Below are positions 5,273 to 43,303 of a DNA stretch of 43,303 bases, one piece after another. The first letter of the stretch is position 1, and every line of letters begins with the position of its first letter. The position numbers and the translations under genes are program-made. The notes below the pieces were generated by a model. The model searched no databases and was not told where the DNA came from. It worked only from the letters and a program-made list of their open reading frames with translations. The stretch is from a virus: the IMG/VR virus record IMGVR_UViG_3300030104_003979, positions 1 through 43,303 of that record; one strand, 5' to 3'.

Positions 5273-5349
5273 CTAGGTAGATTAATTGTTTTATAGACTG
5301 ACCTAGCAGACAAGCCAAGACTATAAAACTTATTTCCTTAGGAGGAAAT
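5273..5349 (+). promoter_or_regulatory. Structured leader with two interleaved stems and a hairpin holding the SD
   Basis: The 150-nt gap after the capsid terminator holds two perfect complementary pairs. CTAGGT 5273-5278 pairs with ACCTAG 5301-5306, and TTTTATAG 5289-5296 pairs with CTATAAAA 5321-5328. The pairs are interleaved, so they form a pseudoknot or are alternatives. The ribosome binding site AGGAGG sits in a third short hairpin (ATTTCC 5332-5337 with GGAAAT 5344-5349). No convincing -35/-10 pair is seen between terminator and stems. Regulation of the downstream decoration gene is inferred from this arrangement. Confidence 0.5.
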
Positions 5350-5350
5350 T

Positions 5351-29450: not shown

Positions 29451-29451
29451 A

Positions 29452-29533
29452 CAGTGACAATGCTGATCACCTTGTTACTGCAAGGGGAGTATGACAACCG
29501 TAGATTATATACCGTTGCTTATACTCCCTCTTG
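29452..29533 (+). promoter_or_regulatory. Tandem leader hairpins upstream of primase
   Basis: Two adjacent hairpins fill the gap. The first pairs CAGTGACAA 29452-29460 with TTGTTACTG 29472-29480 (9 bp with one wobble). The second pairs AAGGGGAGTAT 29482-29492 with ATACTCCCTCTT 29521-29532 (one bulge), with inner pairs CAAC 29495-29498 with GTTG 29514-29517. The 3' arm carries CTCC, complementary to the SD GGAG at 29538-29541. No T-run follows, so a simple terminator is unlikely. Translation control of the primase is inferred. Confidence 0.6.
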
Positions 29534-29550
29534 TTTAGGAGAAAGAATTA

Positions 29551-31077
29551 ATGAAAAATCTTGCGGAAGATTTATACAAGCTATTTAAGGGGAGTGATAT
29601 TGCACATGGAACATACATTGTAAAATCTAACAGAGCCAATGATGGTAAAAAGCAAGGGACTGCAAAGGTTATAAGAGAACCCACCACTGTCGCCATGTGG
29701 GAGGAGCATTTAAAAGGAGGAACTGGTCTGGGTATTATACCCATAAGGAGTGATAACACTTGTCAGTGGGGTGCTATAGATATAGATGAATACGATGTTA
29801 GCCATAAAGATTTAGTTTTCACTTTAAGAAAAAATAAAATTCCAGCGATTGTTGGAAGAACAAAATCTGGTGGTGCTCATGTATGGATATTTTTGTCTGA
29901 GCCAGTAGAAGCTGAAGAACTACAAAGAAAAATGACAGAGTTGTCTGCGGCTCTAGGTCATTCTGGAAGTGAGATATTTCCCAAACAAACCAAAATACTA
30001 ATAGATAGAGGAGACACTGGTAATTTTCTTAACATGCCTTACCACGCAGAAAACAGAACCACACGTTATGCGTTTGACGACAATGGTGAAGCTTTATCTT
30101 TAAAAGAATTTTTAGATTATGTTCAACCTTTCATCATAACACCAAACAAGTTTCGTAAATTAAATACTGGTTTTGGCACTGATGAAAATGTTTTACAAGA
30201 TGGTCCTCCATGTTTACAGCATTTATGCAGTAAAGGGTTTGGTGAGGGCAGTAGAAACAATGCGTTATTTAATTTAGGAGTATACGCTAGAATGTCAGAT
30301 GAAGATAATTGGGAGGTAGCTGTTCAAAGATATAACATGGACTATTTAAAACCACCTTTGTCCCATAATGAAGTGGGTCTAGTAATAAGACAACTAAAGA
30401 AAAAAGATTATTTTTACAAATGTGAAGACCAACCTATAAAACCTTTTTGTGATAAACAAGTTTGTAAAACAAGGAAACATGGAGTCGGTCCCACTGGGAT
30501 AGGTAATGATATGTCGAGCTTAACTAAAATAGACGGAGACCCACCTATATGGATATTAAACGTAGACGGTGAAAGAGTTGAACTTTCAACCAATGGATTA
30601 ACTAGCCAAAACCAGTTTCAAAAAGAATGTGTTTCCCAAATCAATAAATACCCAGTAGCCATGAACCAAAGAGCTTGGCAAACGAGAATACAACTTTTAT
30701 TAGATAACTTAACCATTGTGGAAGTTCCACCAGATGCTACACTAAAAGGTGAATTTGAAGACTTGTTACATGCTTTTTGTTGTGAAAGAGCAAGAGGTGA
30801 ACAAAGAGAAGATATACTACAGGGCGTTGCTGTTTGGGTAGACGGTAAAGTTTACTTTCAAGTAAAAGACATAAAAAAGCATTTATCTGTAAACGATTTT
30901 AATCATTACACTTCTAATAAAATTACTCTACGCCTACAAGAATTAAAGGCAGAAAAGAAATTTTGGAGAGTAAAGGGGAAAGGTGTTCATGTATGGTCTA
31001 TGAACCAACAATTCTTTGAAAAAGAAGAAGGAGATATAGAACTTCCTAATCTTCCAACAGATGACGGTGTAATATAA
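29551..31077 (+). CDS. Archaeo-eukaryotic-type primase (TOTE-like AEP)
   Basis: A 508-residue primase. The AEP catalytic core shows GAIDIDEYD (Asp77, Asp79 metal ligands), SGGAHVWIF (residues 106-114), EIFPKQ (141-146) and GNFLNMPY (157-164). This order matches the primase domain described for TOTE conflict systems and related phage proteins. A PriCT-like helical region follows (about 215-290), then a Cys cluster CEDQPIKPFCDKQVCKTRKH near 291-310. The C-terminal part resembles a winged helix. It would make primers for PolA. RBS AGGAGAAAG lies behind a leader hairpin, and its stop overlaps the UvrD helicase gene start (TAATGA). Confidence 0.85.
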   Translation: MKNLAEDLYKLFKGSDIAHGTYIVKSNRANDGKKQGTAKVIREPTTVAMWEEHLKGGTGLGIIPIRSDNTCQWGAIDIDEYDVSHKDLVFTLRKNKIPAIVGRTKSGGAHVWIFLSEPVEAEELQRKMTELSAALGHSGSEIFPKQTKILIDRGDTGNFLNMPYHAENRTTRYAFDDNGEALSLKEFLDYVQPFIITPNKFRKLNTGFGTDENVLQDGPPCLQHLCSKGFGEGSRNNALFNLGVYARMSDEDNWEVAVQRYNMDYLKPPLSHNEVGLVIRQLKKKDYFYKCEDQPIKPFCDKQVCKTRKHGVGPTGIGNDMSSLTKIDGDPPIWILNVDGERVELSTNGLTSQNQFQKECVSQINKYPVAMNQRAWQTRIQLLLDNLTIVEVPPDATLKGEFEDLLHAFCCERARGEQREDILQGVAVWVDGKVYFQVKDIKKHLSVNDFNHYTSNKITLRLQELKAEKKFWRVKGKGVHVWSMNQQFFEKEEGDIELPNLPTDDGVI

Positions 31078-32597
31078 TGAATATAATACTTGGTCCTCCA
31101 GGAACAGGAAAGACTACAAAACTTTTAAATTTAGTAGAAAACTATATGAAAGCGGGAGTATCTCCTGACAAAATAGGTTACTTTGCTTTTACGAGAAGAG
31201 CCGCGACAGAAGCCATAGAAAGAGCTTGTGAAAAATTTAATTTAACTAAAAAAGAATTACCATATTTTAGAACGTTACACAGTCTTGCTTTTATGATGTC
31301 TGGTTTAAACCACTCCCAAATAATGACACCCAAAAAATATCAAGAAGTAGCAGATTGGTTAAAAATAGGAAAATTCTATACAGGCACAGTTGTAGATCAA
31401 GGTCCTTATAAAGATTTTGGTTACGGAGATAAGTTTTTAGAATTAATAAATATGGCTAGGATTTTACGACAACCATTACGCAAAATATACAATGACAGTA
31501 TTGTCCCACTTAAAACAGATTGGGACAGGGTAAAATATGTAGATAAAGGTTTAAAACATTGGAAAAAATCTTTTGGTTTAGAAGACTATGCAGGAATGTT
31601 GGAATGTTTTTTAGAAAGAAAACTTTGCCCAAAACTAGAAGTTGTTTTTATTGATGAAGCCCAAGACTTATCTCCAATACAATGGGAAATGGTAAACATG
31701 TTAGAGAAAAATAGTGATGCCTGTTATGTTGCAGGAGACGATGACCAAGCGATTTTTCGTTACGCAGGAGCTGACGTTGAACATTTTGTAAACTTAAAAG
31801 GTAAGGTGACATTGTTAAATCAATCTTATAGAATACCATGCACACACCACGAGATTAGTAAAAACGTAATAAGAAGAATCGTAGGAAGAAGAGAAAAAGT
31901 GTTTAACCCTAAACAAGAACAAGGTAGCATCCATTGGCATAGACACTCTGAACAAGTCGACCTAAGTTCTGGAGATTGGTTGTTATTAAGTAGAACCACC
32001 AGAGGAGCTCAGCAAATAGAAGAGGAAGTTCGTAGAAGAGGACACCTATACATTTACAATGGTTCCAGAAGTATAGACAGCAAAGTATTACAAGCGGTAC
32101 GATTATGGGAACATTTAAGAGAGGGTAACCGTTTAGACTTAGAACAAGTAAGAACTGTTTACAATTACATGCTTATGAACAGTCAGGTTAAGTATGGTCA
32201 CAAAACAATGCCAGATGGTTCAGAGGGTACTTTTTACAGCTTACAAGATTTAAAAAATAATCATGGTTTAATGCACTCTAAACCTTGGGATGAGGGCTTG
32301 GGTAAGATAAATGAAAAAGATAAAACCTATATAAAAGCTTGTTTAAGAAAAGGTGAAAGTTTAACTAAAACGCCTAGGATTAAAATATCTACAATACATT
32401 CAGCAAAAGGAGCTCAGGCAACTAATGTAATGTTGCTAACAGATATTATGAAAAGACCTTATAGTATGTGGAGAAAAACAGAAATAAGCCATAGAGATGA
32501 TGAATGTAGAGTTTTTTATGTTGGTTTAACAAGAGCCACACATTCTTTACACTTAATACACCCTATGTTTAGTCAAGGTTTTCATTTCTCTAGTTGA
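31077..32597 (+). CDS. UvrD/Rep-like superfamily 1 helicase
   Basis: A 506-residue SF1 helicase. Motif I is GPPGTGKTT (residues 6-14), Ia FAFTRRAATEA, motif II VFIDEAQDLS (about 189-198), motif III GDDDQAIFRYAGAD, motif IV LNQSYRIP, motif V STIHSAKGAQ and motif VI VFYVGLTRAT near 480. All UvrD-type motifs are present, so it should be an active 3'-5' helicase. It is translationally coupled to the primase, which suggests that they act together at the fork. It is shorter than bacterial UvrD (about 720 aa), with reduced insertion domains. Confidence 0.88.
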   Translation: MNIILGPPGTGKTTKLLNLVENYMKAGVSPDKIGYFAFTRRAATEAIERACEKFNLTKKELPYFRTLHSLAFMMSGLNHSQIMTPKKYQEVADWLKIGKFYTGTVVDQGPYKDFGYGDKFLELINMARILRQPLRKIYNDSIVPLKTDWDRVKYVDKGLKHWKKSFGLEDYAGMLECFLERKLCPKLEVVFIDEAQDLSPIQWEMVNMLEKNSDACYVAGDDDQAIFRYAGADVEHFVNLKGKVTLLNQSYRIPCTHHEISKNVIRRIVGRREKVFNPKQEQGSIHWHRHSEQVDLSSGDWLLLSRTTRGAQQIEEEVRRRGHLYIYNGSRSIDSKVLQAVRLWEHLREGNRLDLEQVRTVYNYMLMNSQVKYGHKTMPDGSEGTFYSLQDLKNNHGLMHSKPWDEGLGKINEKDKTYIKACLRKGESLTKTPRIKISTIHSAKGAQATNVMLLTDIMKRPYSMWRKTEISHRDDECRVFYVGLTRATHSLHLIHPMFSQGFHFSS

Positions 32598-32631
32598 ACA
32601 AAAAAGACTTTATCCCTTGTTACGCTAAATA

Positions 32632-32637
32632 TATAAT
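32632..32637 (+). promoter_or_regulatory. Candidate -10 element
   Basis: TATAAT at 32632-32637 stands in the 75-nt gap before a small gene. GACTTTATCCC at 32606-32616 upstream resembles GACTTTCTCCCC at 42211-42222 before another promoter-like stretch. No standard -35 box with 16-18 bp spacing is present. Confidence 0.4.
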
Positions 32638-32672
32638 TAGTATGTAAGCACAAAAACCATTAGGATAATAAT

Positions 32673-32963
32673 ATGGAAATAAAATATTTTACTAAAGAGC
32701 TTTTAATAAAAGCTAATTTAGAAGCTAAAGTGAAGAAATTAAAATCTGTGCCATTTGTTGCACTAATAGACTCACTTAGCGAAGATTCTAAGTTTCCTGT
32801 TGTTTCTTTTAGTTTGAGTGATGACACGGATTTTGTAACGGCAGAATTATTACTAAATCCACAAACATTGGTAGAGCTTGAGGTTACTTTAAAAACGCTT
32901 AGATCACTACCGTATGTAAGTGTTGATTCTTCTTATTATGATGAAGACCCAACATTACATTAA
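32673..32963 (+). CDS. Small hypothetical protein
   Basis: A 96-residue soluble protein, MEIKYFTKELLIKANLEAKV with a beta-rich middle (FVALIDSLSEDSKFPVVSFS) and an acidic end (SSYYDEDPTLH). AGGATAAT precedes the start. It lies behind a promoter-like sequence and before the DUF932 gene. I do not recognise a family. Confidence 0.6.
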   Translation: MEIKYFTKELLIKANLEAKVKKLKSVPFVALIDSLSEDSKFPVVSFSLSDDTDFVTAELLLNPQTLVELEVTLKTLRSLPYVSVDSSYYDEDPTLH

Positions 32964-32988
32964 TTAACTCGTAGAAAGGAGAAAATAT

Positions 32989-33987
32989 ATGGCACACGAA
33001 GTTGAAACAATGGCGTATGCAGGAAAAGTTCCTTGGCACGGACTAGGAAGAAAAGTTAGCGATAACATGTCTCCAGAAGAAATGTTAGTCGCGGCTCAAC
33101 TTGATTGGTCTGTTAGCAAAAGACAAGCATACACTGTTGATAAACCAGACTGTTGGAACATAATAAACCCAACAGGAGAAGCACAGTTTGTTAGATGTGA
33201 AGATCATTATTATATTGTTCGTGATTCTGACAATAAGGTGCTTTCTCACTGTAAAGACAGTTATGTACCTTTTCAAAATAAAGAAGTTATGAGCTTTTTT
33301 CAAAAATTTACAAAAGCAGGACACATGAAAATGGAAACTGCTGGAAGTTTAAAAGAAGGAAAAGATATATGGGGTTTAGCAAAACTTACAGATAGTTTTA
33401 AACTAGCAGGAGATGACCGTGTTGAAGGGTACTTACTACTAAACAATAGTCATTCAGTAGGAAAAGCTATGACAATTATGTTCACACCTATAAGAGTTGT
33501 TTGTAATAACACTCTTACAATGGCATTAAACAATGAGGGTAGTCGATTTAGAATACCACATTTACAAATGTTCGATGAAGAAATAATGAGAACAGCTGAA
33601 GAAGCTTTAGGCATTAGCAGTATTCACATGAAAAACTTTGAAGAACAATCTTTATATCTTGCTAGTAAAAAGGCAAAACAAAAAGATGTAGATAATTTTG
33701 TTGCTGAGTTATTTCAACCTACACTAATTGGTACAGATAACATGCAACAAGAGTTTAAAAACACTGCCGAGCTTGTAAGCAGAGCAATAGAAACTAGTCC
33801 TGGAGCAGGACTAAGGTCTGCAAAAGGAACTTGGTGGGGAGCTTTAAACGGTGTTACCTATGTTATGGATCATAAGAAAAAATCTAAAACTGAGGGTAAT
33901 GCTTTACACTCTGCTTGGTTTGGTTCAGGTGCGGTTACTAAAAGGAAAGCGTTGAACAAAGCATTAGAATATGCAAAGGTCGCGTAG
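32989..33987 (+). CDS. DUF932 phage/plasmid-like protein
   Basis: A 332-residue protein with the DUF932 (phage/plasmid-like TIGR03299) pattern. It begins with MAHEVETMAYAGKVPWHGLG. LVAAQLDWSVSKRQAYTV, YLLLNNSHSVGKAMTIMFTP, IRVVCNNTLTMAL and the C-terminal GTWWGALNGVTYVMDHKKK follow. The family is common in phages and plasmids, often near replication or recombination genes; its biochemical role is not settled. RBS AAAGGAG lies at 32975-32981. The 114-nt downstream gap holds a structured leader for the next gene. Confidence 0.85.
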   Translation: MAHEVETMAYAGKVPWHGLGRKVSDNMSPEEMLVAAQLDWSVSKRQAYTVDKPDCWNIINPTGEAQFVRCEDHYYIVRDSDNKVLSHCKDSYVPFQNKEVMSFFQKFTKAGHMKMETAGSLKEGKDIWGLAKLTDSFKLAGDDRVEGYLLLNNSHSVGKAMTIMFTPIRVVCNNTLTMALNNEGSRFRIPHLQMFDEEIMRTAEEALGISSIHMKNFEEQSLYLASKKAKQKDVDNFVAELFQPTLIGTDNMQQEFKNTAELVSRAIETSPGAGLRSAKGTWWGALNGVTYVMDHKKKSKTEGNALHSAWFGSGAVTKRKALNKALEYAKVA

Positions 33988-33997
33988 ATAAATAAAC

Positions 33998-34083
33998 TGG
34001 TTTAGTTAATTCCTCCGCAGTTTTTTCTAAACCATTGAGGTAGGTAGATTTAGTGAGGTACTATCGTAACATCTGCCTACCTT
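33998..34083 (+). promoter_or_regulatory. Tandem leader hairpins (second copy of the arrangement)
   Basis: The first hairpin pairs TGGTTTAG 33998-34005 with CTAAACCA 34027-34034 (8 bp perfect, 21-nt loop). The second pairs GGTAGGTAGAT 34039-34049 with ATCTGCCTACC 34071-34081 (11 bp, one wobble). It has an apical TAGT 34051-34054 with ACTA 34060-34063. CCT at 34080-34082 can alternatively pair with AGG of the ribosome binding site at 34091-34093. The layout repeats that at 29452-29533. Confidence 0.6.
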
Positions 34084-34101
34084 TAACAACAGGAGAACAA
34101 T

Positions 34102-34347
34102 ATGGAAGACATAAAACAAAAAAGACCAAGATTTAATAGAAATCTTAAAATAATTAAATTAATGGATGTTCCGCCAATTAAATCAGGAACTAATCGTTAT
34201 AGAAACATGTTAGCAATTATGGAAAGTGCTACCGTTGGAGAAGCTATGGAAAAACTAAGAGCAATGAATCCTGCTCCAGGAGGAGGAATAGATATAAAAA
34301 TAGCTCTTAAATATAAAGCCATTAAAGTTGCAATATCAGATATCTAA
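34102..34347 (+). CDS. Small hypothetical protein, leader-hairpin controlled
   Basis: An 81-residue basic protein (KRPRFNRNLKIIKLMDVPPI, NMLAIMESATVGEAMEKLRA, GGGIDIKIALKYKAIKVAIS). RBS AGGAGAA sits directly after the tandem hairpins. It is the first gene of the stretch leading to the base-modification genes. No family recognised; a small nucleic-acid-binding protein is possible from charge. Confidence 0.6.
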   Translation: MEDIKQKRPRFNRNLKIIKLMDVPPIKSGTNRYRNMLAIMESATVGEAMEKLRAMNPAPGGGIDIKIALKYKAIKVAISDI

Positions 34348-34361
34348 ATTGGATATAGTGA

Positions 34362-34622
34362 ATGAAAATTAAATTTGAAGAAATTAAAAAACAACAAGTA
34401 GACGCTATACATAAAAGAGTAAAAGCTATTGGTATTAAAGGTTTAAGATTATTACACGACCATTATTTAAAAAACACAGAGGACATAAATGTTTGTACTC
34501 TTAATGATTGTTTATGGCTTATGTCAATTAAACATGAAATAAAAACAATAAAAGAAAAATATGGAACTGGTTGTCCTGAAAAAATAGCTGAGGCACAAAG
34601 GGACGCAAAAGGAAATAAATAA
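34362..34622 (+). CDS. Small hypothetical protein
   Basis: An 86-residue basic, helical protein with CTLNDCLWLMSIKHEIKTIK and a final CPEKIAEAQRDAKGNK. Three Cys are present but not in a zinc pattern. The only ribosome-binding-like sequence is a weak GGAT. Its stop overlaps the start of the base-hypermodification gene, so the two are translationally coupled. Confidence 0.6.
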   Translation: MKIKFEEIKKQQVDAIHKRVKAIGIKGLRLLHDHYLKNTEDINVCTLNDCLWLMSIKHEIKTIKEKYGTGCPEKIAEAQRDAKGNK

Positions 34623-35518
34623 TGGATTTACAACAATCAACACAAGTAACTAATTTTTATAATTGGATAAATGAAAGACATTCTATTTACGTTCAACGAA
34701 CAGAACACCCTCTTGATCCTCCTTGGACAAAGGACGTTATACTTCAGTCTTATAAGTTTACTAACGTGTTTAGAGAACTCGACAGAACAACTAAATGGAT
34801 GAGAAAAAATTGGACAAACCCTAACGAGAATAAATCTTATTCAGAGATAATATTTAATTGTTGTTTGTTTAGAATGATAGGCACGATTGAATTTGCTGAA
34901 GATCATGGTTGGGTTTCAAATCATGAATGGGATCCAGACTATACTATAAACGTTATAGAAGACAGACTCACAGAAAACAGAAGATGTTTTACAGGTGCAT
35001 ATATAATAACTAATCAAGGATTAAAAGCTAAGAAATCTCAAGTAGTGGTAAATCATTTTTTAAAACCAGTTTGGAAAGACCGTAACAAACTTGCAGAATG
35101 TACAGAAACAAATTCCCTGCAAGAGTTACATAAAAAATTTGCAGAATATAAAGGTTGGGGCGGAGGTGGTTTTATGGCTTACGAGGTTGTGACTGATTTA
35201 AATCACACCCCAGTTTTAGAAAAAGCAACAGATAGATACACTTGGGCAAACGCAGGTCCTGGAGCGATTCGTGGACTTAACAGGTTGCTAGGAAGAAAGT
35301 TAAATAAAAGCATTTCTCAAAAACAAGCAAATAAAGAAATGCACTATCTCATGAATCAAAAAAATACTTATTGTTTAAAACATGTTCCATTGTCAGAAAT
35401 AGACATGAGAGCAATAGAACATAGTTTATGTGAATGGGATAAATACGAAAGAGTACGGTTAAATCAAGGCAGACCTAGAAGTAAGTTTAATGCCATCAAT
35501 GCTAAACCATTACTCTAG
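34622..35518 (+). CDS. DNA base hypermodification protein (5-hmdU kinase-helical / aGPT-Pplase-like)
   Basis: A 298-residue protein. The N-terminal block FYNWINERHSIYVQR ... PWTKDVILQSYKFTNVFREL (residues 12-53) matches the family defined for phage thymine hypermodification (5-hmdU DNA kinase helical domain and alpha-glutamyl/putrescinyl-thymine pyrophosphorylase relatives). A C-terminal block has GGGGFMAYEVVTDLNHTPVL and WANAGPGAIRGLNRLLGR. In known phages this class acts on 5-hydroxymethyluracil in DNA and leads to bulky adducts that resist host nucleases. No P-loop kinase domain is fused. Next to it lie a glycosyltransferase and a thymidylate-synthase homologue, which supports the assignment. 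The exact reaction is uncertain. Confidence 0.75.
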   Translation: MDLQQSTQVTNFYNWINERHSIYVQRTEHPLDPPWTKDVILQSYKFTNVFRELDRTTKWMRKNWTNPNENKSYSEIIFNCCLFRMIGTIEFAEDHGWVSNHEWDPDYTINVIEDRLTENRRCFTGAYIITNQGLKAKKSQVVVNHFLKPVWKDRNKLAECTETNSLQELHKKFAEYKGWGGGGFMAYEVVTDLNHTPVLEKATDRYTWANAGPGAIRGLNRLLGRKLNKSISQKQANKEMHYLMNQKNTYCLKHVPLSEIDMRAIEHSLCEWDKYERVRLNQGRPRSKFNAINAKPLL

Positions 35519-35563
35519 AAATAAGATGATTAATAAAGAATAGTAATTGACTTAAACTTTTCG

Positions 35564-35569
35564 TATAAT
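35564..35569 (+). promoter_or_regulatory. Candidate -10 element before glycosyltransferase gene
   Basis: TATAAT at 35564-35569 lies 33 bases before the start codon. TTGACT at 35547-35552 is upstream, but the spacing is only 11 bp, too short for a normal sigma70 pair. A weak or activator-dependent promoter is possible. Confidence 0.4.
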
Positions 35570-35601
35570 TAAACATTAATTAAAAACAAAAGGAGCGTAG
35601 A

Positions 35602-36873
35602 ATGAAGTTCCTCATGACTTTATTTCAGATACAAGATTACGGAGGTATTATAAACCATGCAGAGCATCTTGCTTGTGGGCTAAAAGAACTTGGTCATACA
35701 GTGGATTTTCGTATGCTTGTGCCTAAAGACAAAATAGTTTCAAGACGTGTGGCACAACCAAAAGATATATATGAATATCGTACACTAGGCACAGGATATA
35801 AATTTCACCAAGCTCGAGGTTGGTTTAATCTTCCAAAAACACCTTACCTAAATTCTTATCATAGAAAACTTTTTAAAGAAAAATGCAGTGAGTATGATGC
35901 AATTTTATGGCACATACCAGTGCCAACAATGAGCAAAGAAAATAAAGGTGTAGACCAATGGTTAGATTTATACGATCACGGTACAAAAAACATAGCAATT
36001 ATACACGACGGTAACATGCCTGAGCTTTACCCTCACATGTTAAAAGTTATAAAGCATTTTGATTCTTGTGTTTGTGTTCATGAGTCTGCTTTTAATTCTT
36101 CAGAGGTTTTACCTCTACCAAGAAAATTAATTGTAAACCCATTTAAAACTCAAGACTACCCTGAATCTTTACCTTTTCATAAACGCAATGGATTGACAGC
36201 AGTGCAAGTCTTTAAAGGTTGGAAAAGAATGGATAGTTTAATAAGAGCTATTCCATATATACTTCCTGACCAACGCAAAATTATAGGTGGTGAAGGAATA
36301 GAATACAGATACATGACCAGCAAAGATAAATGCAAAGATAAATACTTTTATGAAAACGGTTCAAGGATATGGAATGTTGCTTTGCAATACGGAATGGAAC
36401 ATATTGGTACAGTTCCTAATGAAAAAGTTTTAGAAACATTAAAAGAGGTAAAGCTACAAGTAGATCCCAGTTATAGTAAAAAGTATAGTGAATTTGGAGC
36501 ACACTTTAATAGAACAACCATAGAGGCTATAATCTATGGGGCGGTTCCAGTTGCAACAGACTGGGGTATGAAAAACAGTAAAATTTTCACAGCAGGACAA
36601 AACTACATTGAAGTTCCAGCAGGATGTAGTAGTAAAACATTTGCAGAAATTGTTAATGATGGTTTAACAAATCCAACTTTATGGCAAAAAATTGTAGACA
36701 ACAATTATGATTTAGTCCAAATGTTTGACCAAAAAACAGTTGCTAGTGAGTATGTTTCATTGGTTGAAGGAAAAAGTAATACAATAATAGGAAAACCAAG
36801 CGAAAAAACCATTGCAAAATGCAATAAAAACTTAGATTTCTTCTCTGTGGGGCATGTCGACTATGCCATGTAA
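35602..36873 (+). CDS. GT-B fold glycosyltransferase (GT4-like)
   Basis: A 423-residue glycosyltransferase with two Rossmann-like domains. The N-terminus reads MKFLMTLFQIQDYGGIINHA (Gly-Gly loop at 14-15) followed by AEHLACGLKELGHTVDF. A hinge region has QVFKGWKRMDSLIRAIPYIL. The C-terminal nucleotide-sugar part near 296-321 has SEFGAHFNRTTIEAIIYGAV, with the Glu expected in GT4-like EX7E motifs. RBS AAAGGAG is at 35589-35595. Its place between a base-hypermodification gene and a thymidylate-synthase homologue suggests that it adds a sugar to a hydroxymethylated base in DNA. It could instead alter a host surface glycan. Confidence 0.78.
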   Translation: MKFLMTLFQIQDYGGIINHAEHLACGLKELGHTVDFRMLVPKDKIVSRRVAQPKDIYEYRTLGTGYKFHQARGWFNLPKTPYLNSYHRKLFKEKCSEYDAILWHIPVPTMSKENKGVDQWLDLYDHGTKNIAIIHDGNMPELYPHMLKVIKHFDSCVCVHESAFNSSEVLPLPRKLIVNPFKTQDYPESLPFHKRNGLTAVQVFKGWKRMDSLIRAIPYILPDQRKIIGGEGIEYRYMTSKDKCKDKYFYENGSRIWNVALQYGMEHIGTVPNEKVLETLKEVKLQVDPSYSKKYSEFGAHFNRTTIEAIIYGAVPVATDWGMKNSKIFTAGQNYIEVPAGCSSKTFAEIVNDGLTNPTLWQKIVDNNYDLVQMFDQKTVASEYVSLVEGKSNTIIGKPSEKTIAKCNKNLDFFSVGHVDYAM

Positions 36874-36887
36874 GTCACAAAATGCTA

Positions 36888-36911
36888 GGGTGCTATGGTA
36901 TACCAACACCC
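36888..36911 (+). promoter_or_regulatory. Hairpin before the thymidylate-synthase homologue
   Basis: GGGTG 36888-36892 pairs with CACCC 36907-36911, with the palindrome TGGTATACCA (36896-36905) in the loop. It lies between the glycosyltransferase stop and the RBS at 36928-36933. The core GGTATACC recurs twice in the non-coding region at 41.1-41.3 kb. A regulatory or protein-binding role is possible. Confidence 0.4.
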
Positions 36912-36936
36912 AAAAAACAGGCAAAATGGGGGAAAT

Positions 36937-37917
36937 ATGCACTCGGTTTTTGTAAGAAATGTAAGCGAAGCTCTCTATAAAGGCGTAAATGGTCTATATA
37001 GCTATGGTAGAGAAGTAAAAACTAGAAATGGTTTAGCTTTAGAATTTAAAGCTCCTGTTATTACAGAATACAGTCACCCATCAGAAAAAGTTTTATTTTA
37101 CCCAGAAAGAGACGCTAACCCTTTTTTCCATTTGATGGAAGCTTTCTGGATGTTAGCAGGAAGAAATGATGTAGAGTGGATTAGTCAGTTTAACGGTAGG
37201 ATAAATAACTATAGCGATGACGGTAAAACTTTTCACGGTGCTTATGGTTACCGATGGAAAAACTGGTTTGGAAAAGACCAATTACAAGAATGCTTTTTAA
37301 GGTTGTCTACTTACGAAAACGACAGAAGAGTAGTTCTTACTATGTGGGATCCAAAAACTGATTTAGTTCTTTCTAATGATGGCAGAGACTACCCTTGCAA
37401 TACTCAAATATTTTTTTGGCGTAGAGACGAAAGGTTACACATGTCTATTATAAACCGTAGTAATGATATGATATGGGGAGCTTATGGAGCTAATGCAGTT
37501 CACATGGCAGTTTTACAAGAGTACATGGCAGGAATGCTAAGAATACAAGTTGGAAAAATGTATCAGTTTTCTAATAATCTTCATGCTTATGTAGAAGTAT
37601 TAGAAAAAATTAAAAATATAAAAGACGATTATGAAAATTATCTTACCATAGGCGATGATCATGGTCAGTATGATCCCGCACCTTTACTAACTCATCCCCA
37701 TTCTTTTGACAAAGAACTAAAGGAATGGTTTCAAGCAAGTGAAAATCGTACTGACTATGAAAATATTTTTTTAGGAGTAACAGCTACACCTATGAGACAC
37801 GCATGGGAATTATATAAATCAAAAAATTTAATTAAAGCAATACAGGTCGCAAAAACAATTAACGACAGAGCATGGCGAAAGGCATGTGTTGAATGGTTAC
37901 AAAGGAGGCAAAAGTGA
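36937..37917 (+). CDS. Thymidylate synthase homologue (possible dUMP hydroxymethylase)
   Basis: A 326-residue ThyA-superfamily enzyme. ATG 36937 is chosen because GGGGG lies upstream at the right distance; ATG 36895 overlaps a hairpin and adds a non-family N-terminus. Visible residues are the entry Glu in FFHLMEAFWMLAGRNDV, FHGAYGYRWKNW, the active-site Cys154 in DYPCNTQIFF, the phosphate-binding NRSND (173-177) and LHAY (His216, Tyr218). The dUMP-specificity region reads GAYGANAVH, unlike GLPFN in ordinary ThyA. This divergence and the neighbours suggest a base-modifying role, making hydroxymethyl-dUMP, rather than plain dTMP synthesis. Plain TMP synthesis remains possible. Confidence 0.82.
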   Translation: MHSVFVRNVSEALYKGVNGLYSYGREVKTRNGLALEFKAPVITEYSHPSEKVLFYPERDANPFFHLMEAFWMLAGRNDVEWISQFNGRINNYSDDGKTFHGAYGYRWKNWFGKDQLQECFLRLSTYENDRRVVLTMWDPKTDLVLSNDGRDYPCNTQIFFWRRDERLHMSIINRSNDMIWGAYGANAVHMAVLQEYMAGMLRIQVGKMYQFSNNLHAYVEVLEKIKNIKDDYENYLTIGDDHGQYDPAPLLTHPHSFDKELKEWFQASENRTDYENIFLGVTATPMRHAWELYKSKNLIKAIQVAKTINDRAWRKACVEWLQRRQK

Positions 37918-38204
37918 CTAAAGAAAAGTTTTTAGAAAATTTAAAAGTTATCGCTGAAAACGATACTGAAAGTTTATTAGACGCACAACGTTCTTATGGT
38001 GATAGTTGGAAAAAGCGTGGTGGAGTTGGGGCTTTTATGATGTTAGCTCGTAAGTGGGACAGAATAGAAAACCAAGTTCAAGAAACTAATTATGATATTT
38101 TATCAGCATGTAGGTCAGACACTAGCGATAGTGGTATAATAGATGATATAAGAGACTTGCGTAGGTATTTATTACTTGTAGAAGAAGAGGTAACAGAAAA
38201 GTGA
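37914..38204 (+). CDS. DUF1599-like (nucleotide modification associated) small protein
   Basis: A 96-residue helical protein. GTG 37914 overlaps the preceding stop (GTGA) and sits six bases after AGGAGG at 37903-37908, so it is preferred over ATG 37893. The block SYGDSWKKRGGVGAFMMLAR with KWDRIENQV, and later DDIRDLRRYLLLVEEEV, resembles DUF1599-type proteins predicted to be associated with nucleotide modification and distantly MazG-like. Coupling to the thymidylate-synthase homologue fits a role in the nucleotide pool. Family call is moderate. Confidence 0.6.
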   Translation: MTKEKFLENLKVIAENDTESLLDAQRSYGDSWKKRGGVGAFMMLARKWDRIENQVQETNYDILSACRSDTSDSGIIDDIRDLRRYLLLVEEEVTEK

Positions 38205-38422
38205 AAAACGCTGAAAAAAGAAAATATACTATTTGCTGTACAATAGAATATACAAATGTCCAAAAAATAGAAGCCGAAAATATTAGAGAAGCTATCGATA
38301 AAGCAGAAAATAATATAAAATTCGATAGAAACCCATTAACTCAAAATTTCAAAATTTGTGATAAACATGTTTACGATTTTACAAATTATGTCGACGGAAG
38401 GAAAGAATACTACGACGAGTAA
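38201..38422 (+). CDS. Small hypothetical protein
   Basis: A 73-residue protein, MKNAEKRKYTICCTIEYTNV with a helix ENIREAIDKAENNIKF and an aromatic, acidic end. It begins with GTG overlapping the preceding stop (GTGA). The beta-helix-beta look is like small phage domains of unknown role. No family recognised. Confidence 0.55.
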   Translation: MKNAEKRKYTICCTIEYTNVQKIEAENIREAIDKAENNIKFDRNPLTQNFKICDKHVYDFTNYVDGRKEYYDE

Positions 38423-38447
38423 ATCAGTTTAAGGAAAAACATCTTAC

Positions 38448-38618
38448 ATGGTATATAAACAACAAAATAAAATTAATTTAGATGATAAAACAAATGCTAT
38501 TTGTGAATGTGGAAAAGTGAAAAAAATTTTAACGTTTCGTAACTTAAAAAATAAATGGCCGATTTGTGAGTGTAAACAACCTATGAGAATTACTAGAAAT
38601 GCAGATACCCCTGTTTAA
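38448..38618 (+). CDS. Short zinc-ribbon protein
   Basis: A 56-residue protein with paired CxC motifs: AICECGKVKK (Cys19, Cys21) and WPICECKQPM (Cys40, Cys42), spaced as in a zinc ribbon. AAGGA lies at 38431-38435 upstream. It overlaps the start of the DNA polymerase gene by 20 nt, so the two are probably translationally coupled. A DNA-binding or polymerase-accessory role is inferred only from position. Confidence 0.6.
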   Translation: MVYKQQNKINLDDKTNAICECGKVKKILTFRNLKNKWPICECKQPMRITRNADTPV

Positions 38619-40494
38619 ACCACCTACAGAGTGGGTTATGCCAGACGGTTACCCAGATCTATCCACAGAAAAAGAAATATGTATTGATTTAGAAACTAAA
38701 GACCCTGACCTCTTAACTATGGGTAGCGGTTGGGCAAGAAAACATGGACACATTATAGGAGTTGCTGTTGCTTGTACTAAAGGTGAATGGTATTTTCCTG
38801 TTCGTCATGAAATAGGTTCTAACTTAGATGTAAAAATAACGATGAACTGGTTAAGAGATGTATGTAGTATAGATAGGAAATATATATTCCATAATGCTAC
38901 TTATGATGTAGGTTGGTTATTGACAGAAAATATTGAAATAAAAGGTCAGATTATAGATACAATGGTAGTAGCTCCATTATTAGACGAGAATCGTTTTAGC
39001 TATGCTCTTAATTCTTTGTGTAAAGATTATTTACAAGACCGTAAAAGCGAAAAAGAACTTTATGAGGCGGCTGAGGCATTTGGGATTAATGCAAAAAGTG
39101 AGATGTATAAACTTCCTGCTTCTTATGTGGGTTGCTATGCGGAACAAGATGCTCGTTTAACACTTAGACTTTGGCAACATTTCAAACCTTTGCTTACCAA
39201 AGAAGATATAAATGATATTTTTGAACTAGAATTAAAAGTGTTAAAAACAATTATACCCATGAGACAAAAGGGCGTAAGAATAGATATAAATAAAGCAGAA
39301 AAAATAAAAGAAGAGCTCCTAACAAAAGAGAAAAAGTTAATTAAAAATGTTAAACAAAAAACGGGAGTTAATGTTGAAATTTGGTCAGCTGAAAGCGTAG
39401 CTCAAGTTTTTGATAAATTAAACTTGACTTATAGTAAAACAGAAAAGACCCAAGCCCCAAGTTTCACCAAAGGATTTTTAACTAATCACCCTCACGAAGT
39501 ACCCCAAATGATTGTTCAGGCAAGAGAATACCAAAAAGCTCGGTCTGCTTTTATAGACACAATTTTAAAACATCAGGTAAATGGTCGCATACATGCTGAG
39601 TTACATCCTCTTCGTAGTGATGACGGTGGTACAGTAACAGGAAGATTTAGTTACAGTAACCCAAACTTGCAACAGATTCCAGCTCGGCATGGTGAAATAG
39701 GTCCAATGATTCGTAGCTTGTTTTTACCAGAAGAAGACACTCTATGGGGTGCATTTGACTACAATAGCCAAGAACCACGCATAGTGGTGCATTATTCACA
39801 ATTGATGGGGTTTCAAGGGGCAGAAGATTTTGCTCAACAATACAACGAAAACCCATACACCGATTTTCATCAGATGGCGGCAGACATTGTGAACGTGCCG
39901 AGAAAACAAGCTAAAGATATAAACTTAGGATTATTCTATGGCATGGGGACTAAAAAACTCGCGGCTTCTCTAGGTCTTGACTTTGAAGAAGCACAAGAAT
40001 TGTTTTCTATCTACCATGAAAAAGTGCCTTTTGTGCGACAACTTCATGAGTATTGTTCTAACCGTGCAACCAGTAAAGGAGTTATCCGCACCTTGTTAGG
40101 AAGAAGATGTAGGTTTGATAAATGGGAGCCAAACAAGTATGGAGTATGGAAACCCATGACATACAAAGAAGCATACAACGAACATGGTCCTGCAATCAAA
40201 AGAGCTTTTACTTACAAAGCTTTAAATAAATTGATACAAGGGTCTGCCGCAGATCAAACAAAAATGGCGATGGTAGCTCTTGCCGAAGAAGGAATATTAC
40301 CCATGATACAAGTTCACGATGAATTAGACATTTCCGTAGAAAATGAAACTCAAACAAAAAGAATAAAAGAAATTATGGAAACTTGCGTAGATTTAAAAGT
40401 TCCGAGTGTTGTAGACGCTGAGGTAGGTTTAAATTGGGGAGAGGCTAAACAATCATTTGACAACTGTAAAGAATTATGGAAAACGAAAAGTTAG
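38599..40494 (+). CDS. polA: Family A DNA polymerase with 3'-5' exonuclease
   Basis: A 631-residue DNA polymerase I-type enzyme without the 5' nuclease domain. Exonuclease motifs are DLETK (Asp30, Glu32), NATYDVGW (Asp103) and YAEQDARLT (Asp184). Polymerase motif A is FDYNSQEPR (Asp387), the O helix is RKQAKDINLGLFYG (Arg435, Lys439, Tyr447), and motif C is VHDE (His573-Glu575). The residue equal to E. coli Phe762 is Leu443, the variant reported as common in marine virioplankton. All catalytic residues are present. It overlaps genes on both sides. It is likely the replicative polymerase and may use modified dNTPs. Confidence 0.93.
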   Translation: MQIPLFKPPTEWVMPDGYPDLSTEKEICIDLETKDPDLLTMGSGWARKHGHIIGVAVACTKGEWYFPVRHEIGSNLDVKITMNWLRDVCSIDRKYIFHNATYDVGWLLTENIEIKGQIIDTMVVAPLLDENRFSYALNSLCKDYLQDRKSEKELYEAAEAFGINAKSEMYKLPASYVGCYAEQDARLTLRLWQHFKPLLTKEDINDIFELELKVLKTIIPMRQKGVRIDINKAEKIKEELLTKEKKLIKNVKQKTGVNVEIWSAESVAQVFDKLNLTYSKTEKTQAPSFTKGFLTNHPHEVPQMIVQAREYQKARSAFIDTILKHQVNGRIHAELHPLRSDDGGTVTGRFSYSNPNLQQIPARHGEIGPMIRSLFLPEEDTLWGAFDYNSQEPRIVVHYSQLMGFQGAEDFAQQYNENPYTDFHQMAADIVNVPRKQAKDINLGLFYGMGTKKLAASLGLDFEEAQELFSIYHEKVPFVRQLHEYCSNRATSKGVIRTLLGRRCRFDKWEPNKYGVWKPMTYKEAYNEHGPAIKRAFTYKALNKLIQGSAADQTKMAMVALAEEGILPMIQVHDELDISVENETQTKRIKEIMETCVDLKVPSVVDAEVGLNWGEAKQSFDNCKELWKTKS

Positions 40495-41045
40495 AATTAT
40501 TACAAAAAAGACTCAGGGGCGGTAATGTCTTACGTTATCATACTCGCCCTGAAATAATGGACGGTCAAAATGTCGCGGCTCACACTTGGAGAGCTGTTGT
40601 TATTCTGCATACTTTGTTTCCTTATGTGAGTATAAATGCTGTTTTATATATGCTTTACCACGATGTTGCAGAATTTGAAACAGGGGACATGCCCGCGACA
40701 ACAAAATGGAAGTACGATAAACTCTCTGAGTTAATGAACCAAGTAGAATCCGACTACGAAAAACAGCTAGGCATAGGGTCTTCTTGTATAGAAGTAACTG
40801 AAAAAGAAAAGAAATTATGTGATATATCTGACAAATTAGAACTTGTTTTACATTGTCACCATTTATTAAAACAAGGGAACACCCAAGCTGAAGACGTTTT
40901 TGTAAGAGGTTACATTTACCTGAGAACAAAATACAAAGATGATCCTAGTTTTAAAATAGTGATTCCAATTTTAGAAGAATTAGTTCGCACAAATCCTAGG
41001 TCAGAAACTTTACTCGCCAGTATAAATAAAATTTACTCTACTTGA
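40476..41045 (+). CDS. HD-domain nucleotide phosphohydrolase (YfbR-like)
   Basis: A 189-residue HD-domain protein. Key residues are Arg20 and His22 (VLRYHTRP), His36 (AAHTWRA), His62-Asp63 (MLYHDVAEFETGDMPA) with Glu66 and Asp71, and a later metal Asp near 116-119 (CDISDKLEL). The pattern RxHTRPE...VAxHT...HDxxExxTGD resembles the deoxynucleotide 5'-phosphatase YfbR and related dNTP hydrolases of phages. It probably removes unwanted deoxynucleotides to favour modified ones, or recycles host DNA. It overlaps the polA stop by 19 nt. Substrate cannot be read from the sequence. Confidence 0.82.
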   Translation: MENEKLELLQKRLRGGNVLRYHTRPEIMDGQNVAAHTWRAVVILHTLFPYVSINAVLYMLYHDVAEFETGDMPATTKWKYDKLSELMNQVESDYEKQLGIGSSCIEVTEKEKKLCDISDKLELVLHCHHLLKQGNTQAEDVFVRGYIYLRTKYKDDPSFKIVIPILEELVRTNPRSETLLASINKIYST

Positions 41046-41085
41046 CATAAAAAGAAAAGCTCACTATTTTTTTATATGTTATATT
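41042..41085 (+). promoter_or_regulatory. Sigma70-like promoter of the 41-kb leader
   Basis: TTGACA at 41042-41047 and TATTTT at 41065-41070 are 17 bp apart. A second, extended -10 (TGTTATATT 41077-41085) lies just downstream and resembles TGTTATAAT at 26077-26085. The TTGACA overlaps the stop codon of the HD gene. Transcription would start near 41075-41095, leaving a leader of about 270-290 nt. Confidence 0.6.
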
Positions 41086-41099
41086 ATTTATGTGTTAAT

Positions 41100-41342
41100 A
41101 AATTAATGTCGTTAGTTGGGACAGGTATACCTCGAAAGAGAATGCAGAATACTATTAACAATGGCTCTAGTGTATATCAGTAACCATTGGGCATTAATAA
41201 ATTATGTAGAGTGATTAACGACTTGACGACTAACTGCGAAAGCTCAACATAATAGGGTAGATAGGGACGCAATGGTGTAGGTATACCGACTGCGATTAAT
41301 GATATGCAAACAGAAGCAGACCAAGCATACACCTATCTACCT
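41100..41342 (+). ncRNA. Structured non-coding region (candidate ncRNA or long regulatory leader)
   Basis: The 317-nt gap 41046-41362 holds no convincing gene. Long-range pairing is possible between GTCGTTA 41108-41114 and TAACGAC 41216-41222. A hairpin pairs ATTAACAATGG 41154-41164 with CCATTG 41184-41189 and TTAAT 41194-41198. CTC-GAAA-GAG at 41131-41140 is a GNRA-capped stem. A large stem pairs GGTAGATAGG 41256-41265 with CCTATCTACC 41332-41341. Inside it, CGCA 41268-41271 pairs with TGCG 41291-41294, and TATGC 41303-41307 with GCATA 41325-41329. CCTCT 41340-41344 can instead pair with AGAGG of the SD (41352-41356). This looks like a switch; the class is unknown to me. Confidence 0.5.
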
Positions 41343-41362
41343 CTAATAACAAGAGGGAAACA

Positions 41363-41539
41363 ATGAAACAAAAAAATATAAACTTAAGACCAAACGAAAA
41401 CTTATACATGAGCGTTTACGAAGACGGAACAATAGAATACATTCCTGCCACACCAGAAGACCACAAAAAAGAAGTTAAAAGGTTGAGAAATCTTGGGGTT
41501 GTGTTTGCTACTGAAAAAAGAAACGATTTAGTAAAATGA
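41363..41539 (+). CDS. Small hypothetical protein under structured leader
   Basis: A 58-residue charged protein, MKQKNINLRPNENLYMSVYE then DGTIEYIPATPEDHKKEVKR. The RBS AGAGGG (41352-41357) lies in a possible sequestering hairpin. Its stop overlaps the next start (ATGA), so it could be a leader gene that couples translation to the following enzyme-like gene. No family recognised. Confidence 0.6.
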   Translation: MKQKNINLRPNENLYMSVYEDGTIEYIPATPEDHKKEVKRLRNLGVVFATEKRNDLVK

Positions 41540-42048
41540 ATATATTTATATTGAGTTGGGATCACCAAACAAATGCTCGGTGGCATTGCGACAAACATGT
41601 AGTTAAGATGCCATTGGAAACCACCCAAATGCTGAGCACCGTTTATCATCGATATACTAATAATGGTCCTTACAAACCTGTTCACCAAAAACATCCATGT
41701 ACTCTTTGGGCAGGAACCACTATTGATAACTATAAATGGTTACATCAGTTAGGTGTTTGTCTCTGTAAAGAATACACCTATCGTTACGATAGAGTTCATG
41801 CTTGTGAAAAAGTTCTTGCAATGATTACCGATCCTCCTGTAAAGTTAAAAGAAGAAGGTTTCACTACGCCCTATCAGGCAATGCCTGATGTATATAAAGA
41901 TAGAAACACTCTTGTTGCTTATCATAATTATTATATAAATGAAAAAGCGAGGTTTTGTAAATGGAAAAGAAGACCAATACCAAAGTTCATGCAAACAGTC
42001 ATGGTGCAAATGTTATCCCATTCAAGACAAAATCGACCCCAATCATAG
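41536..42048 (+). CDS. Conserved phage protein with HCDKHVVKM motif, unknown function
   Basis: A 170-residue protein with several strongly patterned blocks: MNIFILSWDHQTNARWHCDK (residues 1-20), HVVKMPLETTQMLSTVYHR, HQKHPCTLWAGTTIDNYKWL, CKEYTYRYDRVH, AMPDVYK and YHNYYINEKARFCKWKRRPI. His, Cys, Asp and Lys clusters suggest an enzyme or a metal site. The family is widespread in phages, but I know of no established role. It is translationally coupled to the preceding small gene and its 3' end overlaps a zinc-ribbon gene by 88 nt. A nucleotide or DNA-modification role is only a guess from context. Confidence 0.75.
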   Translation: MNIFILSWDHQTNARWHCDKHVVKMPLETTQMLSTVYHRYTNNGPYKPVHQKHPCTLWAGTTIDNYKWLHQLGVCLCKEYTYRYDRVHACEKVLAMITDPPVKLKEEGFTTPYQAMPDVYKDRNTLVAYHNYYINEKARFCKWKRRPIPKFMQTVMVQMLSHSRQNRPQS

Positions 42049-42188
42049 AAGAAACTACTGTTGACGTATTAGTTTGTAATATTTGTTCTAATAACACTTT
42101 CCATTTGGTAAAGGGTGATAAAGAAGGCGGTGATGTTGCTTGTTCTTCATGCGGTTTTTTAGTAAGAGGTAAATGGATAATAAAATAA
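41961..42188 (+). CDS. Zinc-ribbon protein overlapping the preceding gene
   Basis: A 75-residue protein with CNICSNNTFHLVKGD (Cys-x2-Cys) and VACSSCGFLVRGKWI (Cys-x2-Cys), a typical zinc ribbon, after a Lys/Thr/Asn-rich start MEKKTNTKVHANSHGANVIP. GAGG lies at 41951-41954 upstream of ATG 41961. There is an 88-nt overlap in a different frame with the preceding gene; both frames look real because each carries family-like motifs. The role may be RNA or DNA binding. Confidence 0.65.
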   Translation: MEKKTNTKVHANSHGANVIPFKTKSTPIIEETTVDVLVCNICSNNTFHLVKGDKEGGDVACSSCGFLVRGKWIIK

Positions 42189-42210
42189 GACTAAATAAGA
42201 CTTAACCTAC

Positions 42211-42278
42211 GACTTTCTCCCCATATATACTATAAATACTAAATTAACGCTTTTAGAAAGAAAGCAGGAAGAAAGTAA
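42211..42278 (+). promoter_or_regulatory. Promoter-like stretch and purine-rich leader
   Basis: GACTTTCTCCCC 42211-42222 is followed by TATACT 42226-42231 and TATAAAT 42231-42237. The 20-mer leader 42259-42278 matches 26102-26121 at 18 of 20 bases and contains the ribosome-binding-like AGGAAGAA. The same leader behind two A/T-rich promoter-like sites suggests a shared control class. Confidence 0.45.
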
Positions 42279-42279
42279 A

Positions 42280-42459
42280 ATGACAATTAGTACAATAACA
42301 CAAGAAGAGTTTCACCACTTTGTTAAAATTCAACACTCTGGTGAATACAACATGGTTGACAGTACAGTAGCTGACATTATAGGTATTGATTCTACTCAGC
42401 ACATGTTTATTCTAAAAAACTATGAAGAACTTGAACAAAAATACGGTTCAGGGGAATAA
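42280..42459 (+). CDS. Small hypothetical protein
   Basis: A 59-residue protein, MTISTITQEEFHHFVKIQHS then GEYNMVDSTVADIIGIDSTQ and a helical end NYEELEQKYGSG. AGGAAGAAAG precedes ATG 42280. Short proteins of this kind (helix, GEYNM, acidic helix) occur in marine phages; the role is unknown. It is followed after two bases by the next gene. Confidence 0.6.
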   Translation: MTISTITQEEFHHFVKIQHSGEYNMVDSTVADIIGIDSTQHMFILKNYEELEQKYGSGE

Positions 42460-42461
42460 CT

Positions 42462-42911
42462 ATGGGTGATAGATGTAGCATACAGTTTGTCCAAAAAACT
42501 AAAGGTCTTAACGACAAACCTGTTACTTTTAAATCTGTTGTATTGTTTAATCACTGGGGAGGTACGTCCTTCCCAGAGTATGCAAAAGAATGGTTAGACA
42601 AACACAACAAGCGACTTGCAAGTTCTCGCAAGAAAAATTGGTGTGACCCCATTACTCGTATGGACCCAAATCAGTTAATGATGCAGTTTATACGAGACCT
42701 TGCAAGAAACGAAGACTATGATTCTAGTCATGATTGCAAGTCGCACACATTTTATTATATGGAAGAACCACACTCTAGACCAACTAATCCTAGATATTTT
42801 TCAACTAGTCTATATTTAGGAGCGGATGAAAACCATGGAGATAACTCAGACAATGGGCATTTTATAATAGATGTGCCTGAGCCCATGTATTTAGAGGACG
42901 AAAAAAAGTAA
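42462..42911 (+). CDS. Conserved phage protein of unknown function (MGDR...HWGG type)
   Basis: A 149-residue protein beginning MGDRCSIQFVQKTKG, with VVLFNHWGGTSFPEYAKEWL and MDPNQLMMQFIRDLARNED. A late region has NHGDNSDNGHFIIDVPEP. The MGDRxxI...HWGG combination recurs in many phage early or middle genes without a known role. GGGG at 42451-42454 serves as RBS. A stem-loop leader for the next transcript follows its stop. Confidence 0.65.
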   Translation: MGDRCSIQFVQKTKGLNDKPVTFKSVVLFNHWGGTSFPEYAKEWLDKHNKRLASSRKKNWCDPITRMDPNQLMMQFIRDLARNEDYDSSHDCKSHTFYYMEEPHSRPTNPRYFSTSLYLGADENHGDNSDNGHFIIDVPEPMYLEDEKK

Positions 42912-42921
42912 ATCAAGTAAA

Positions 42922-42968
42922 GGGTAGATAGGTACTAAGTGTAATCAAGTCGAACAACCTATCTACCC
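42922..42968 (+). promoter_or_regulatory. Leader hairpin sharing its stem with the 41.3-kb element
   Basis: GGGTAGATAGGT 42922-42933 pairs perfectly with ACCTATCTACCC 42957-42968 (12 bp). The loop is 23 nt with inner ACT/AGT pairs. The 5' arm with its flanking A (42921-42932) is identical to 41254-41265, and the 3' arm matches 41331-41341. CCCT 42967-42970 next to AATAAATTAACAGGAG offers a weak alternative pairing with the SD. Confidence 0.65.
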
Positions 42969-42993
42969 CTAATAAATTAACAGGAGATATATT

Positions 42994-43029
42994 ATGAGAC
43001 AAATAACTAAAGAGAGGATAAGTAAGTGA
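42994..43029 (+). CDS. Possible 11-residue leader peptide
   Basis: ATG 42994, seven bases after CAGGAG, opens MRQITKERISK and stops at TGA 43027-43029, which overlaps the GTG start of the last gene. Good spacing and coupling suggest a translated leader; the length alone proves nothing. Confidence 0.35.
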   Translation: MRQITKERISK

Positions 43030-43303
43030 GTAATAAAATAATTAAGACAATTTATTTAGATGATTGGTTTACAAATTATATATTTGAAGATGAACTGAAT
43101 TCTAGAGGTTTAGATTTAAATAGAAATTTTAGAGAGGAGGCAATAGGTAATCTAGGAGATTGGTTGCCAATATCTTGTATAACTAATTGGGAAGAAATAA
43201 AATCTTTATTAAACGAAGTAGATGATAAAAATTTAAATTTAGGTGATGAAAAGTTAGGAGATTACTTTGAGTCTCAAGGAGAAATTGGTTGGGAGGGTGG
43301 ATA
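43026..43303 (+). CDS. Hypothetical acidic protein, 3'-truncated
   Basis: GTG 43026 opens a frame that runs to the right window edge (92 complete codons). The product begins MSNKIIKTIYLDDWFTNYIF with EDELNSRGLDLNRNFREEAI, and continues acidic with several Trp. AGAGAGG lies at 43010-43016 upstream and the start overlaps the stop of the 11-codon frame. I do not recognise a family. The end of the gene is outside the window. Confidence 0.55.
   Translation, partial: MSNKIIKTIYLDDWFTNYIFEDELNSRGLDLNRNFREEAIGNLGDWLPISCITNWEEIKSLLNEVDDKNLNLGDEKLGDYFESQGEIGWEGG

Follow-up and report, generated by a model that had tools for sequence, protein, structure and literature searches.

Hairpins at gene junctions in the window

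The window analysed here (IMG/VR IMGVR_UViG_3300030104_003979; 43,303 bases) is a virus record that is linear and partial, and the elements in question are RNA hairpins that lie between its genes, shortly before the ribosome binding site (RBS) of the next gene. Site A (29480-29534) lies between a Pam3 gp34-like gene and a primase gene, site B (34037-34083) between a DUF932 gene and open reading frame (ORF) 34102, and sites C (41255-41342) and D (42922-42968) are found further downstream; the RNA elements of the window described below are all on the plus strand. Judged by the DNA polymerase of the window, the nearest named phages are 023Pt_psg01, DSL-LC04, and the pelagiphages HTVC027P and HTVC023P (49-55% identity). 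Relatives were collected from IMG/VR via the polymerase (49 loci), the primase (50 loci) and the capsid protein (80 loci), and individual loci are referred to by L numbers.

An initial annotation of the DNA had placed four hairpins near these coordinates, and all of them proved more stable than their dinucleotide-shuffled counterparts (1000 shuffles each). The folding energies were -26.5 kcal/mol for A (z -6.85), -20.6 kcal/mol for B (z -4.37), -28.7 kcal/mol for C (z -3.70) and -18.9 kcal/mol for D (z -4.44), and for each site only 0-1 of the 1000 shuffles was as stable. The stems end about 16-26 nt upstream of the start codon, and none of the four is followed by a U-tract, in agreement with the earlier remark that a terminator-like T-run is absent. 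Three further hairpins had been missed, one just 5' of A (29452-29480), one just 5' of B (33998-34034), and a fifth pre-RBS hairpin, E, at 5288-5329. An Rfam search of sites A-D gave no family match at gathering score.

The arms of C and D are identical over 10 nt (GGTAGATAGG / CCTATCTACC), as had been noticed, and neither arm occurs elsewhere in the window. The hairpin at 34 kb had been described as a variant of the same stem; the B stem GAGGTAGGTAGAT is indeed related, though the likeness is weaker (score 10), and B probably belongs to the repeat family. The A stem is unrelated in sequence to those of B, C and D. The proposal of one family consequently holds in that there is a recurring pre-RBS class, and within it a true same-stem subfamily (C, D and B-like) that recurs in related phages, but A is not part of the latter.

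Position and strand of the hairpins among relatives

In 350 intergenic gaps of 40-260 nt, hairpins of -15 kcal/mol or lower were observed 116 times against 39 expected, and hairpins ending 12-28 nt before the start codon 63 times against 5.4 expected, where the counts are not independent events because the loci are related to each other. These figures replace an earlier statistic with loosely merged stems, in which the enrichment was weak (217 versus 179), by one based on hairpin energy. For 37 of 39 A sequences and 20 of 21 B sequences the mRNA strand gave the more stable fold of the two strands, and G-U pairs were more numerous on the mRNA strand (135 versus 74 for A, 59 versus 17 for B). 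This strand asymmetry in folding shows that selection acts on the mRNA and not on the DNA. Overall, the RNA structures at these junctions are a genuine class that is conserved; they are of an ordinary kind and new in these viruses.

The gp34-like/primase junction

The junction at site A holds two hairpins. The stop codon of the gp34-like gene is immediately followed by hairpin 1 (29452-29480; CAGTGACAA / TTGTTACTG), which has a conserved loop core, TGATC. Hairpin 2 (29480-29534), the one noted initially, consists of a lower stem GCAAG/CTTGT and a main stem GGGAGTAT/ATACTCCC with inner pairs, and ends 16 nt before the primase ATG at 29551; the Shine-Dalgarno (SD) sequence of the primase gene, AGGAGA as judged from the sequence, occupies 29537-29542. 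When a covariance model was built from 19 relatives, with the window excluded, its best match in the window was 29449-29481, i.e. hairpin 1 (18.5 bits, E 0.038). Among relatives both sides have changed in 7 of the 11 pairs of hairpin 1, while its loop is kept as YTGATCG or GTCATGA. Hairpin 2 has an ortholog in nearly all relatives, with a stem sequence that differs in most lineages and a pairing that is kept (medians: 15 pairs, and 18 nt from stem end to start codon), down to primases of ~35% identity, and stems of this type are also present in the named phages 023Pt_psg01 and DSL-LC04. The gene upstream is gp34-like even at low identity. In L001 an extra gene has been inserted between the A hairpins and the primase gene, and the hairpins have remained beside gp34.

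The gp34-like protein of the window is encoded at 28632-29450, and its homologues in many relatives terminate in DDDIPF/DEIPF. Such a C-terminal tip is typical of single-stranded DNA-binding protein (SSB), and since relatives carry it the gp34-like protein may be the single-stranded DNA-binding protein of the phage. The window's own copy is without the tip. A search with the predicted fold returned nothing significant; its weak matches include SSB and other OB-fold entries, and the label SSB-like therefore rests mainly on the tip in relatives.

The junction after the DUF932 gene

At site B a predicted upstream hairpin (33998-34034; TGGTTTAG / CTAAACCA) precedes the main hairpin (34037-34083; arms GAGGTAGGTAGAT / ATCTGCCTACCTT); at the position of the former, relatives have a 5-bp hairpin, GACAA/TTGTC. 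Where the junction could be read in relatives, an orthologous main hairpin is nearly always present behind the DUF932 gene. Among 20 distinct relatives, 12 of the 15 stem pairs have changed on both sides, and as a whole the structure scores 0.464 for covariation, where shuffles give 0.228 and slid partners no more than 0.081. The stems of B and of hairpin 1 at A covary in relatives. The elements are not, on the other hand, always placed before the same genes. The DUF932 gene upstream of B is constant, whereas four kinds of gene are found downstream (the 34102 type, a type of 190-230 aa beginning MYYAI/MFYAI, the 34622 type, and one unique gene), and the inserted gene in L001 breaks the association at A.

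The likeness of the B stem to that of D varies among loci, from a D-like stem in L001 (score 20), through the less clear case of the window, to unrelated stems in the other relatives (4-8), and unrelated stems can therefore serve at one and the same position. By sequence likeness, this suggests that the repeat of C and D is able to take over a conserved position such as B.

Relatives at B (e.g. L012:5965-5990) also conserve the sequence AYAGAAAGG at the SD; short arms on either side of it are complementary (TTTCC/GGGA, CTTC/GAAG) and possibly fold into a mini-hairpin around the SD; covariation support for it is small, with both-side changes in one pair. Leaders like CTCGTAGAAAGGAG occur before other genes too.

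The repeat of sites C and D and its leader arrays

The hairpin at C (41255-41342; GGGTAGATAGG / CCTATCTACCT) encloses a 66-nt loop that is itself conserved in L109 and L112, being almost the same as one loop in L109. The hairpin at D (42922-42968; GGGTAGATAGGT / ACCTATCTACCC) is a perfect 12-bp stem and is directly followed by CTAATAAATTA (42969-42979), a copy of the conserved 3' flank YTAATRAATT. The stem of C and D, GGGWTAGATAGG, recurs in L001, L050 and L108-L113, followed there by YTAATRAATT or a close variant. As read from these sequences, C and D, and probably B, are members of a separate composite repeat made up of the stem GGGWTAGATAGG and YTAATRAATT. The flank was found 25 times in ten loci, 13 of them directly after a stem of at least 8 bp and 12 of these 13 in elements of the C/D type; the number of independent occurrences is smaller, because some loci are near-identical (L109, L112). 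RAATT fits the core motif of RNase E, RN|WUU (PMC5222698), as does the AAATT within the copy after D, but the match is too short, and the flank too AT-rich, to be more than weak evidence for an RNase E site.

In L109 (1855-2460), and in part also in L112 and L113, a non-coding array of ~600 nt lies ahead of a block of small genes. Within it, hairpins whose stems are near-identical and which carry the TTAATRAATT flank recur several times, with further hairpins in between. The composite repeat is thus part of small-RNA-like leader arrays in related marine phages. A leader module of the window, M1 (41101-41204; GTTAGTTGGGAC...CTCGAAAGAG...CAATGG...CCATTGGGCATTAAT), was found only there and, in near-identical copies, in L050 and L108-L113. 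A pseudoknot CAATGG/CCATTG is possible in M1; as a nested fold, the window stretch was no more stable than shuffles, and M1 had no match in Rfam.

A loose M1 pattern had 40 matches in bacterial genomes, at a chance-like level, and the sole one with CCATTG nearby (L131) was without the rest of M1. A blastn search of leader C and the L109 array against named phages gave nothing convincing. An exact search for GGTAGATAGG hairpins recovered L050, which is a true relative with its same-stem hairpin just 3' of a promoter-like sequence, and L054, which has a gene in common with L110; L051-L053 are other phages in which the inverted repeats are probably due to chance. Just 3' of hairpin D the window also has an ORF of 11 codons (42995-43030, MRQITKERISK), the stop of which overlaps the GTG start of an ORF that leaves the window end.

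Site E after the capsid gene

The major capsid gene of the window is followed by a canonical intrinsic terminator with a GC stem and a U-tract (5218-5250), homologous to terminators in capsid relatives, and then by hairpin E (5288-5329; GTTTTATAGACT / AGACTATAAAAC enclosing GACAAGCCAAGAC; z -3.02). At this position capsid relatives match the Mu-gpT-DE RNA (RF03012) with E-values down to 1.2e-15, and window positions 5201-5380 gave no match to the covariance model of that family. Like the Mu-gpT-DE RNA, E is a structured RNA between a capsid gene and the next RBS, at the same place, and the two have a core in common, GACA..GCCAAGAC / GACA..GCCA.GAC, the window core GACAAGCCAAGAC having been read by eye. 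E, although too different for the model, is a divergent counterpart of this RNA; sites A-D are unrelated to it in sequence. Among the capsid relatives L171-L191 several carry the Mu-gpT-DE RNA with the SD inside its outer stem; the counterpart region in the window is 5270-5350.

Function of the junction hairpins

Our favoured reading, to which we assign a probability of roughly 0.5, is that polycistronic phage mRNA carries these hairpins as protective stem-loops between cistrons, of the puf/galE type. In Escherichia coli the galE hairpin, with a stem of 8 bp, is a block to exonucleases once Rho-dependent termination or a cut by RNase E has taken place (PMC11925234; PMC9239205), the puf stem-loop is cited as a protective element (Chen 1988, via PMC9239205), and operon expression can be shaped by programmed decay (PMC5927463). 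By analogy, transcription would pass through the hairpins, the downstream segment would be cut by an endonuclease or terminated, and 3'-to-5' exonucleases would trim back as far as the hairpin and halt there, so that the upstream message would persist for longer; translation of the next gene would start at the RBS of that gene, which lies immediately beyond the stem. From one transcript, the upstream gene would in this way yield more product than the downstream one, in the case of A more SSB-like gp34 homologue than, for example, primase, and in the case of B more DUF932 protein than product of the gene that follows. A protective element at A would make sense if much SSB-like protein and little primase are needed. 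At C and D a hairpin of the same kind forms part of a repeated cassette, the 3' flank of which matches the RNase E core motif.

This reading is supported by the constant upstream and variable downstream genes at A and B, by stable stem-loops without U-tracts between cistrons, where co-transcription of both genes is assumed from gene order, and by action on RNA as seen in the strand asymmetry and the excess of G-U pairs on the mRNA strand. It is also supported by the covariation at B and at hairpin 1 of A, the kept pairing of hairpin 2, the excess of hairpins ending 12-28 nt before a start, the SSB-type tip of several gp34-like relatives, and the use of unrelated stems at one position, B. A promoter between hairpins and gene was also considered and excluded, the space being only ~20 nt. 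Several points weigh against protection of the upstream message. In L035 gp34 and primase are direct neighbours, separated by 23 nt in which there is no hairpin, and the junction in HTVC023P is a 5-nt gap, likewise with no hairpin. No clear RNase E motif lies between stem and SD at A and B, and a function at the downstream RBS, or simple packing, could equally account for how closely the stems precede the next start codon. A purely structural barrier, moreover, does not account for the conserved loop of hairpin 1. A tentative proposal, which covers this loop and the C/D leader arrays, is that undescribed structured RNA classes are present, one being the tandem element at the SSB-like/primase junction, where the YTGATCG-type loop of hairpin 1 would be recognised by something and the second stem would be free to vary, and the other being leader arrays in which small non-coding RNA modules such as M1, punctuated by same-stem hairpins and an RNase E-type site, would be cut apart into separate small RNAs during infection.

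The initial annotation had proposed a family of translational switches or protein operators, in which the main stem and a pairing of its 3' arm that sequesters the SD exclude each other and a factor chooses between them. The tracts it pointed to (CTCC, CCT and CCCT) are present in the 3' arms. When the 5' arm was removed in 62 elements, and hiding of the SD by the 3' arm was compared with that by composition-matched shuffled 3' arms, mean SD accessibility was 0.36 with the real and 0.37 with the shuffled arms, at a mean rank of 0.47 where chance is 0.5. A general anti-SD switch is unsupported, because arms of matched composition do as well as the real 3' arms in pairing with the SD, and an operator for a shared sequence-specific protein does not fit A and B, the stem sequences of which turn over freely. 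D is an outlier (rank 0.03), with an SD accessibility that falls from 0.80 to 0.15 on removal of the 5' arm, and a local SD effect may, as modelled, exist there alone; even with this, the conserved loop of hairpin 1 and the SD mini-hairpin predicted at B in relatives in its favour, we regard the switch or operator as very improbable. Processing by host RNase III as in phage T7, where the enzyme cuts intergenic hairpins and separates the messages, is less easily dismissed. Its selection of double-stranded RNA independently of sequence would suit A and B, and the layout is alike, with hairpins shortly before the next RBS; in T7 the cuts lie 22-61 nt before the start codon, and folding places them at or close to the base of the upper stem. 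Many stems here, however, have only 9-16 pairs, which is short for RNase III, and large loops. An internal loop and lower stem, common to most T7 sites, are found in window A and are absent from most other elements, which are single stems with a median of 15 pairs. We regard RNase III processing as unlikely.

A slightly poorer fit is transcription attenuation, where the hairpins, perhaps together with Rho, would make RNA polymerase pause or terminate in part and so reduce downstream expression. Hairpins close after the stop codon of a constant upstream gene would be expected from it, and hairpin-stabilised pausing has been proposed for galE (PMC9239205), but the pre-RBS class has no U-tracts, whereas the same phage group uses canonical U-tract terminators after the capsid gene. 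The last alternative places the benefit downstream, in that a cut upstream of the hairpin would leave it as a protective 5' end of the downstream message, as in the papA type, or that the stem would shield the RBS from upstream RNA. The papBA operon is a precedent (PMC5927463), and the same-stem hairpin of L050 lies directly after the promoter-like sequence. The median distance of 18 nt from stem end to start codon, over primases down to ~35% identity, agrees with such a role, as the edge of the 30S footprint lies near 18 nt before the start codon. Since the downstream gene varies freely at B and, in L001, at A, what has been conserved is not an advantage for any one downstream gene, and we consider this explanation marginally less likely again than attenuation.

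Comparison with known systems

The elements resemble those of puf (Rhodobacter capsulatus) and galE (E. coli) in being stem-loops between cistrons that need no U-tract and are tied to the end of the upstream gene. They differ from these in being phage-borne, with a position kept across a wide group, free sequence turnover and a near-fixed distance to the next start; the galE hairpin, unlike them, lies inside the next gene, roughly 120 nt past the galE stop. The RNase III sites of T7, likewise intergenic hairpins ending shortly before the next RBS, have a common sequence and mostly two stems with an internal loop. The translational operators of T4 genes 32 and 43 are also leader RNA structures near an RBS, but there a specific protein binds a conserved sequence, whereas the stem sequence here is free. 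C and D resemble the PeSL cassettes of T4-type phages, which are described (Arbiol 2010; Comeau 2014, both as cited in PMC4503421) as repeated stem-loop cassettes in small-gene regions, common to related phages. PeSLs, according to the same accounts, couple an early promoter to a terminator stem-loop, whereas the C/D repeats have the YTAATRAATT flank, no U-tract and no promoter fused in the unit; promoter-like sequence, read by eye, lies near some copies only.

If the hairpins do protect the upstream message, compact marine phages would tune the ratio of their replication proteins at a few fixed junctions through RNA decay. Free turnover of the stem combined with kept pairing is a clear signature of such elements in uncultured viruses, and this turnover may explain why they are absent from Rfam. 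The C/D repeat with its leader arrays may, in addition, be a source of phage small RNAs.

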